This document shows positions 48,411 to 50,232 of a stretch of DNA of 64,000 nt, piece by piece. Each line of letters opens with the position of its first letter. The first letter of the stretch is position 1. The translations under genes were made by a program, and so were the position numbers. The notes under the pieces were generated by a model that saw only the letters and a list, made by a program, of their open reading frames with translations, was not told where the DNA came from and searched no databases. This stretch comes from Corallococcus carmarthensis (GTDB lineage Bacteria; Myxococcota; Myxococcia; Myxococcales; Myxococcaceae): positions 1 through 64,000 of the forward strand of contig NZ_RAWE01000005.1 in the NCBI RefSeq assembly GCF_003611695.1. Direction: 5' to 3'.

Positions 48411-49355
48411 CTAGCGCACCCGGGCGCGCGGTCTCTTCGAGCGCGGCGGGGCTTCCGCTTCGGCCTGCGCGGCCAGGTACTCCGCGAACACGGCCTCGAA
48501 GGTCGCCGCGAACTCACGGATGCGGGGGACCTTGCGCAGATCCTTGTGCATCGTGAGGTAGAAGCGGAGCGACGGCAGCGGCGTCTCCAGACGTACCCGG
48601 ATCAATCCCAGGTGCTCCTGCTCCGCCCCGACCCCCAGCATCACCAGGCCCATGCCGCCCTTCGCCGCGTGCAGCCGCGCCTCCATCGAATTGGAGCGGA
48701 AGGGAAAGCGGCAAGCGCCCCGCTGGATCAACCACTGCGAAGGGCCCTGCCCACGAGGCGTCTCGTCCTCGACGACGAAGTCCTGCTCACGGTAGTCGTC
48801 GGCGCCCAGGAACCGCTTGGGCAGAGCGCGCGCCAGGTACTCCGCGCTCGCGTAGAGGCCAGTCACGACGTCGCCCAGCGGCTTGTCGATGAGCACCGGT
48901 GAGGAGGACCGCCCGCCCCTCACGCCGATGTCCGCTTCGCGCGAGGACAGGTCCACGAACCGCAGCTCCGAAATCACTTCCACCAGTGTCTCCGGATGCA
49001 GCCGCCGGAACCGCGTGGCCGCCTCCGCCGCTCCCACCAGGAAGCCGTCCGGCAACGAGACGCGAATCCTGCCCGCATAGGGAGAGCTCCCGCCGCCATC
49101 ACGGCGGTGCGCGCGCAGGGACTGCTCGAAGCCCTCCGCCAGCGCGATGAGCTCCAGGGCCTCCTTCTCCAACCAGACGCCCTGCGAGGTGCGATGGACC
49201 AGCGCGCGCCCCAGGTCCTTCTCCAGCGCCCCGATACGGCGCGCCACCGTGGAGGTCGACAGGCCCAACTGGAGCCCCGCCGCGAGGAAGCTGCCGCCGC
49301 GATGCACTTCGAGCAGGACGCGGAGGTCATCCCAGGCGGGCAGTTTGTTTTCCAT
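48411..49355 (-). CDS. LysR-family regulator of the SDR gene
   Basis: 314 residues, helix-turn-helix at 8-65 (GSFLAAGLQLGLSTSTVARR, IGALEKDLGRALVHRT), ligand domain GRIRVSLPDGFLVGAAEAAT. It follows the SDR gene after 14 bases on the same strand. An inverted repeat TTTCCA-N4-TGGAAA overlaps its start codon and the same sequence lies upstream of the SDR gene, so it probably regulates both itself and SDR. Confidence 0.92.
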   Translation of the reverse strand: MENKLPAWDDLRVLLEVHRGGSFLAAGLQLGLSTSTVARRIGALEKDLGRALVHRTSQGVWLEKEALELIALAEGFEQSLRAHRRDGGGSSPYAGRIRVSLPDGFLVGAAEAATRFRRLHPETLVEVISELRFVDLSSREADIGVRGGRSSSPVLIDKPLGDVVTGLYASAEYLARALPKRFLGADDYREQDFVVEDETPRGQGPSQWLIQRGACRFPFRSNSMEARLHAAKGGMGLVMLGVGAEQEHLGLIRVRLETPLPSLRFYLTMHKDLRKVPRIREFAATFEAVFAEYLAAQAEAEAPPRSKRPRARVR

Positions 49356-49364
49356 GGGTGGAAA
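49349..49364. promoter_or_regulatory. LysR operator candidate, site 1
   Basis: TTTCCA (49349-49354), four bases, TGGAAA (49359-49364). It overlaps the LysR start codon (CAT on the plus strand at 49353-49355). The same arms recur at 50215-50230. Confidence 0.65.
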
Positions 49365-49369
49365 GCACT

Positions 49370-50158
49370 CTAGGTCGCCGGGAGCGCGGGCGTCTTCGGA
49401 CGGGTCATCCGCGCGATGACCTTCGCGCTGAACTCGCGTGAGAAGAAGCGGTTGGCGACGGATGCGAACCGGTTGCCAAGGCCATGCACCACCGACGAGC
49501 GCCCGGCGATGAAGGCAGCCAGGCCCACGGTCACCACGTCCTCCGGCCGCGCCTTCTTCCCGGGGGACGCGCCCTCCCCCGAGCGCTCGAAGAACGGCGT
49601 GTCCGTCGCCCCCGGCGACAGGGCCAGCACCCGGACGCCTCGCTCGCGGTACTCCGCCCAGAGCGCTTCGCTGAAGGACAGGACAAAGGCCTTCGTCGCC
49701 CCGTAGACCGCCATGTACGGCGTCGGCTGGTACGCGGCCATCGAGGCCACGTGGATGACGCCGCCCTGGCGCCGCTCCAGCATGGGAAGGAAGACGTGTG
49801 TCAACTCCACGAGCGCATGGACGTTGAGGTCGATCTGCTCCAGCTGGTCCTTCAAAGGCAGCACATCGAAGCCGCCGTGCAGGCCGAACCCCGCGTTGCT
49901 CACGAGCACGTCCACTTCGAGCCCCTTCGCACGGACTGCGTCGAAGAGCCGCCGCGGGGCCCCCGGAGCGGTCAGGTCCGCGGGCAGGACGTGCGCATTG
50001 CCCAGCGCCGCGGCGAGCGCCTCCAGCTTCGCCTCGCTCCGGGCCACCAGGACCAGCGTGGCGCCCCGGCGTGACAACTCCCGGGCGAACTCCGCGCCAA
50101 TGCCCATGGACGCACCCGTCACCAGCACCGTCTTGCCCGCGAAATCAAATCGTTTCAT
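49370..50158 (-). CDS. Short-chain dehydrogenase/reductase
   Basis: 262 residues. Classical SDR: TGASMGIG (residues 14-21), NAG (NAGFGLHG), catalytic Ser in VASMAAYQ, YGATKAF with Tyr-x-x-x-Lys. ATG 50158. NAD(P)-dependent oxidoreductase of unknown substrate. Its promoter side carries a 16-bp inverted repeat shared with the LysR gene start, so it is likely the LysR target. Confidence 0.92.
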   Translation of the reverse strand: MKRFDFAGKTVLVTGASMGIGAEFARELSRRGATLVLVARSEAKLEALAAALGNAHVLPADLTAPGAPRRLFDAVRAKGLEVDVLVSNAGFGLHGGFDVLPLKDQLEQIDLNVHALVELTHVFLPMLERRQGGVIHVASMAAYQPTPYMAVYGATKAFVLSFSEALWAEYRERGVRVLALSPGATDTPFFERSGEGASPGKKARPEDVVTVGLAAFIAGRSSVVHGLGNRFASVANRFFSREFSAKVIARMTRPKTPALPAT

Positions 50159-50212
50159 CGGTCAAGGATGGGCGCCGGCCGCCCCTGCAACAACGGGAAG
50201 CGGTGGACACCT

Positions 50213-50232
50213 GCTTTCCAGAAATGGAAAGC
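50213..50232. promoter_or_regulatory. LysR operator candidate, site 2
   Basis: GCTTTCCA (50213-50220), GAAA, TGGAAAGC (50225-50232): a perfect 8-bp-arm inverted repeat 55 bases before the SDR start, repeating the arms of the site at 49349-49364. Confidence 0.65.

Follow-up and report, generated by a model that had tools for sequence, protein, structure and literature searches.

Paired dyads at a tandem SDR-LysR locus of Corallococcus carmarthensis as candidate operators of the adjacent LysR-type regulator

The occurrence of the same inverted repeat, TTTCCA-N4-TGGAAA, at two adjacent genes raises the question of whether both copies serve the LysR-type regulator that one of the genes encodes. 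The window considered here is a 64,000-nucleotide stretch of the C. carmarthensis genome (positions 1 to 64,000 of contig NZ_RAWE01000005.1), and its two repeats stand where a first-pass annotation, made from the letters of the window, had put them: one across the LysR start codon (49349-49364) and one about 55 bases ahead of the ATG (50158) of an SDR-family oxidoreductase gene (Table 1). The LysR-side copy contains CAT at 49353-49355, which is the start codon read on the minus strand (ATG, 49355-49353). The SDR-side copy can be extended to GCTTTCCAGAAATGGAAAGC, or GCTTTCCA-N4-TGGAAAGC (50213-50232), and its centre lies 64 bp ahead of the SDR ATG. The two genes are indeed neighbors on one strand, the SDR gene leading and the LysR gene following after a 14-bp gap. 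Both LysR domains, the N-terminal HTH and the substrate-binding domain, score past their cut-offs, and the SDR gene encodes an SDR domain; among the best 25 NCBIfam models for the SDR, none reached its cut-off. A 90%-identical LysR orthologue is present in a named Corallococcus record, and, of 79 relatives, 14 genomes contain the LysR (E up to 1e-40), 13 contain the SDR (E up to 1e-75), and 12 contain both. The recognition segment of the HTH, STST-ARR, is invariant in LysR relatives of 39 to 91% identity. A search of open-licence papers found no description of this LysR/SDR regulator pair.

Table 1. Features of the SDR-LysR locus, in window coordinates
Feature	Position	Strand	Basis
LysR-type regulator gene, proposed binder of both dyads	48411..49355	-	Pfam HTH_1 (PF00126) 5e-13, LysR_substrate (PF03466) 3.3e-19
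Strong dyad over LysR start codon, TTTCCA-N4-TGGAAA, TTTCCATGGGTGGAAA	49349..49364	-	Exact motif
SDR-family oxidoreductase gene, leads gene pair	49370..50158	-	Pfam adh_short (PF00106) 3.7e-44
Proposed SDR -10 element CATCCT, 6 nt before ATG	50165..50170	-	Conserved A in relatives
Degenerate second dyad TTCCCGTTGTTGCAGG, proposed ABS, 31 bp downstream of strong site	50184..50199	-	Dyad similarity and column conservation
Strong dyad 5′ of SDR, proposed RBS	50215..50230	-	Exact motif, conserved in relatives

The exact motif occurs only twice in the 10,793,792-base genome, both times at this locus, against about 0.04 copies expected from base frequencies at an assumed GC content of about 70%; the reversed control pattern has no exact occurrence in the same genome. 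Allowing one mismatch gives 6 genome sites versus 2 for the control, and allowing two gives 77 versus 41, so that the weak matches are mostly background. The annotation had judged two copies unlikely by chance, and their rarity together with the conservation of the homologous positions bears this out; many copies unrelated to LysR genes, the result that would have spoken against it, were looked for genome-wide and did not turn up. A wider regulon was considered and rejected, as the one-mismatch sites (L164-L167) lie mostly in long reading frames and tblastn found no LysR or SDR relative there. Across 195 genomes of the phylum there are 46 exact dyads, 19 of them, by a hand count from the coordinates, at the locus of this regulator; exact dyads away from LysR in other genomes (L157-L163) are scattered. 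In two genomes (G152 and G154; L155:2018-2033 and L156), an exact TTTCCATTCATGGAAA overlaps what may be the start codon of an unrelated gene for a TPR-like protein; this LysR is not nearby, and a gene upstream resembles, by eye, one for a WYL-type regulator.

The dyad over the regulator's own start codon is, from comparison of related loci, unusually deeply conserved. Among 38 non-redundant relatives with a LysR at least 40% identical, mainly from myxobacteria and also from Delftia, 33 have a dyad that matches at least 9 of 12 positions and whose positions 10-12 are the LysR start codon. With dinucleotide-shuffled upstream regions, a start-codon dyad appeared in 0.37 of 38 on average and in 3 at most, a comparison that, the relatives sharing ancestry, speaks to the presence of the dyad and not to the number of times selection kept it. 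The left half of the dyad (TTTCCA or TTTGCG) precedes the start codon and lies outside the coding sequence, so that constraint on the LysR protein does not account for its conservation; the right half (ATGGAAA or ATGCAAA, encoding Met-Glu/Gln) is coding, and its conservation may be partly at the protein level. The dyad follows LysR over wide divergence and through a switch between divergent and tandem gene order, strong support from comparison for the annotation's proposal that the dyads are sites of the neighboring LysR. It also outlasts changes of partner: where no SDR adjoins LysR, several relatives still have the dyad on the start codon, with a different gene opposite, an ApbA/PanE-like reductase in L055 and L061 and, in Nannocystis, a protein that gave no Pfam match over its first 330 residues. 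Conversely, the dyad is missing at L043 (genome G018), where the SDR is 56% identical and has no LysR beside it; the gene divergent to this SDR resembles, by eye, one for a TetR-type regulator, which suggests that the regulator was exchanged. At the LysR start, the dyad is absent in four tandem relatives (L139-L142) and degenerate in two (L045 and L046), and Luteibacter L110 has no dyad. In G001 (L017/L145, C9:170115-171043), a 13-nt deletion in lysR shifts the frame, a possible natural loss of the regulator as read from sequence, and both dyads have two mismatches; that loss of LysR led to decay of the sites is weakened as an explanation by the degenerate sites that also occur beside intact lysR. 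In Roseobacteraceae (L082-L086), where the LysR is about 30% identical, TTTGCG-N4-[TC]GCAAA immediately precedes the apparent start codon instead of covering it, a hint that an operator of this kind is older.

Gene order differs among the relatives: of the tree rows, 24 have SDR and LysR divergent and 13 have them in tandem. In most (Archangium, Hyalangium, Sorangium, Minicystis, Delftia, and others), the two genes point away from each other and have one dyad in common; in the clade of the window, LysR lies downstream of the SDR on the same strand and each gene has a copy. The tandem loci form one supported group in the LysR tree, including one member without an adjacent SDR, which is consistent with a single change of gene order on a tree rooted at its midpoint only, and the divergent arrangement is probably ancestral. 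The spacing from dyad centre to SDR ATG is mostly 63-65 bp in both gene orders, with exceptions from 56 to 121 (projected starts). When non-redundant sequences are aligned on the dyad in the SDR direction, the strong dyad at 0-15 is followed by TTACC at 21-25, TGCCC[AG]TT at 31-38, [CT][AG]GAAA-like bases at 41-46, and a conserved A near +61, where a -10 element would fit. TTACC reads GGTAA in the LysR direction and is a probable -10 element for LysR, about 10 bp before the dyad. Its TA core is strongly conserved in divergent loci. In tandem loci, the SDR-side block no longer shows this conservation, as would be expected with LysR transcribed from elsewhere, but retains the strong dyad along with its spacing and some of the weak site. 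On the LysR side, two tandem relatives (L045 and L046) have a degenerate start dyad and, 30 bp from it, a weak site, TTTCCAGCAACGGGCA, suggesting that the whole block was duplicated; in the clade of the window, the start dyad alone remains there. The relatives L139-L142, of another genus, keep the dyad at the SDR as TTTGCGTTYCTGCAAA and have none at LysR, which makes the SDR-side site the best candidate for the main operator. We therefore refine the annotation's account in two respects: the main operator and promoter features belong to the SDR-side site, and the LysR-start copy, missing in some tandem relatives, is probably secondary or vestigial. The CAT within the SDR-side dyad (ATGGAAA on the opposite strand) may even be a fossil LysR start codon, a suggestion based mainly on one lineage.

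We consider it very probable that both dyads are operators of the adjacent LysR-type regulator. In the LTTR scheme, a high-affinity RBS is combined with lower-affinity ABS and ABS′ sites, and the protein shifts between them with effector (PMC11739112). The locus resembles this scheme in that a strong dyad lies about 64 bp before the presumed target start with weaker sites about 31 and 21 bp further in, in that the regulator adjoins its target (divergently in most relatives), and in that sites are found at both genes. T-N11-A is formally present in the 16-mer (T2 and T3, A14 and A15), off the dyad axis. Unlike in classical LTTR systems, however, the palindrome is an even 16 bp, so that centring gives T-N12-A, and the start codon of the regulator falls within it; in the clade of the window, the genes are also in tandem and the dyad is present twice. 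The locus is likewise close to uncharacterised divergent LysR/SDR pairs of Archangium, Sorangium, and Delftia (LysR 44-50% and SDR 65-73% identical), which have the same dyad at a similar distance from the SDR but differ from the tandem, two-dyad window in having one shared dyad. At offset +31, similarity to the dyad reaches its maximum (7.4/12 in divergent and 6.4/12 in tandem loci), and +21 is a second peak; in the window genome itself, the +31 site is a poor match. Of the non-redundant sequences, 16 of the 19 divergent ones and 10 of the 12 tandem ones have the conserved A at the proposed SDR -10 element, and the distance of CATCCT from the ATG would imply a leaderless or very short-leader SDR transcript. 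Provided that transcription begins at the SDR ATG, the spacing fits an RBS near -65 and an ABS near -35. LysR would then bind the strong SDR-side dyad as its RBS at about -64 and, depending on effector state, would also take the weak half-sites at +21 and +31 (ABS′ and ABS, overlapping the -35 region), repressing or activating the SDR-LysR operon and in this way setting its own dose. At divergent loci, the strong dyad on the LysR start codon lies just downstream of the GGTAA box, so that bound LysR should block LysR transcription. In the clade of the window, the copy on the LysR start may be a secondary autoregulatory site.

The SDR-side dyad could be the sole working operator and the copy on the LysR start a relic of the earlier divergent promoter, held in part by the coding ATGGAAA; this is a variant of the operator explanation, with which our confidence in it overlaps, and we give it somewhat less than an even chance. 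It would account for the relatives that have the dyad at the SDR alone, and for the window having no recognisable weak site or GGTAA box by the LysR copy, where the stretch is SDR coding sequence. However, the non-coding TTTCCA is intact at LysR in close relatives with intact lysR (G005, G007, G009, and G013) and in L123 at 79% identity, while the middle bases vary across these relatives. Another possibility, to which we give a slightly lower chance, is that a start-codon operator held by several myxobacterial families and Delftia was duplicated at the change from divergent to tandem order, giving an operon with an upstream and an internal operator in which LysR would lower its own production independently of the SDR. 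It is improbable that some other regulator binds the dyads or that they function as RNA hairpins, terminator, or attenuator. We found no specific support for this; the dyad lies at the classical LTTR position and stays with LysR through changes of gene order and partner, the arms of a hairpin would be just 6-8 bp, and the SDR-side copy would be upstream of the presumed transcript. A chance coincidence of two A/T-rich palindromes might be argued from window shuffles, 2 of 100 of which reach three matches at two mismatches, but the genome has no exact copies beyond these two, the homologous positions are conserved, and the comparative data refute it, leaving it a negligible prospect.

The proposed operators would give an uncharacterised myxobacterial LysR family a ready operator consensus of about TTT[CG]C[AG]-N4-TG[CG]AAA, with a regulon that is perhaps a single operon and as such testable. 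Judged by sequence and its evolutionary support, which is clean, the locus is ordinary LTTR biology, a further case of classical LTTR control in an arrangement already known in kind. The evolutionary series suggests how a shared divergent promoter splits once the regulator moves behind its target, the operator being retained at both genes and the -10 box of the departed gene decaying. The pair may also have moved between lineages. Nannocystis exedens has a tandem-type LysR/SDR pair (L047; 68% and 64% identical) that the LysR tree places inside the Corallococcus-type clade, which suggests horizontal transfer; this genome also has a further LysR of the family (L049). The betaproteobacterial Delftia (L062 and L064) has a divergent LysR/SDR pair of myxobacterial type with both the dyad and the GGTAA box, suggesting transfer between phyla.
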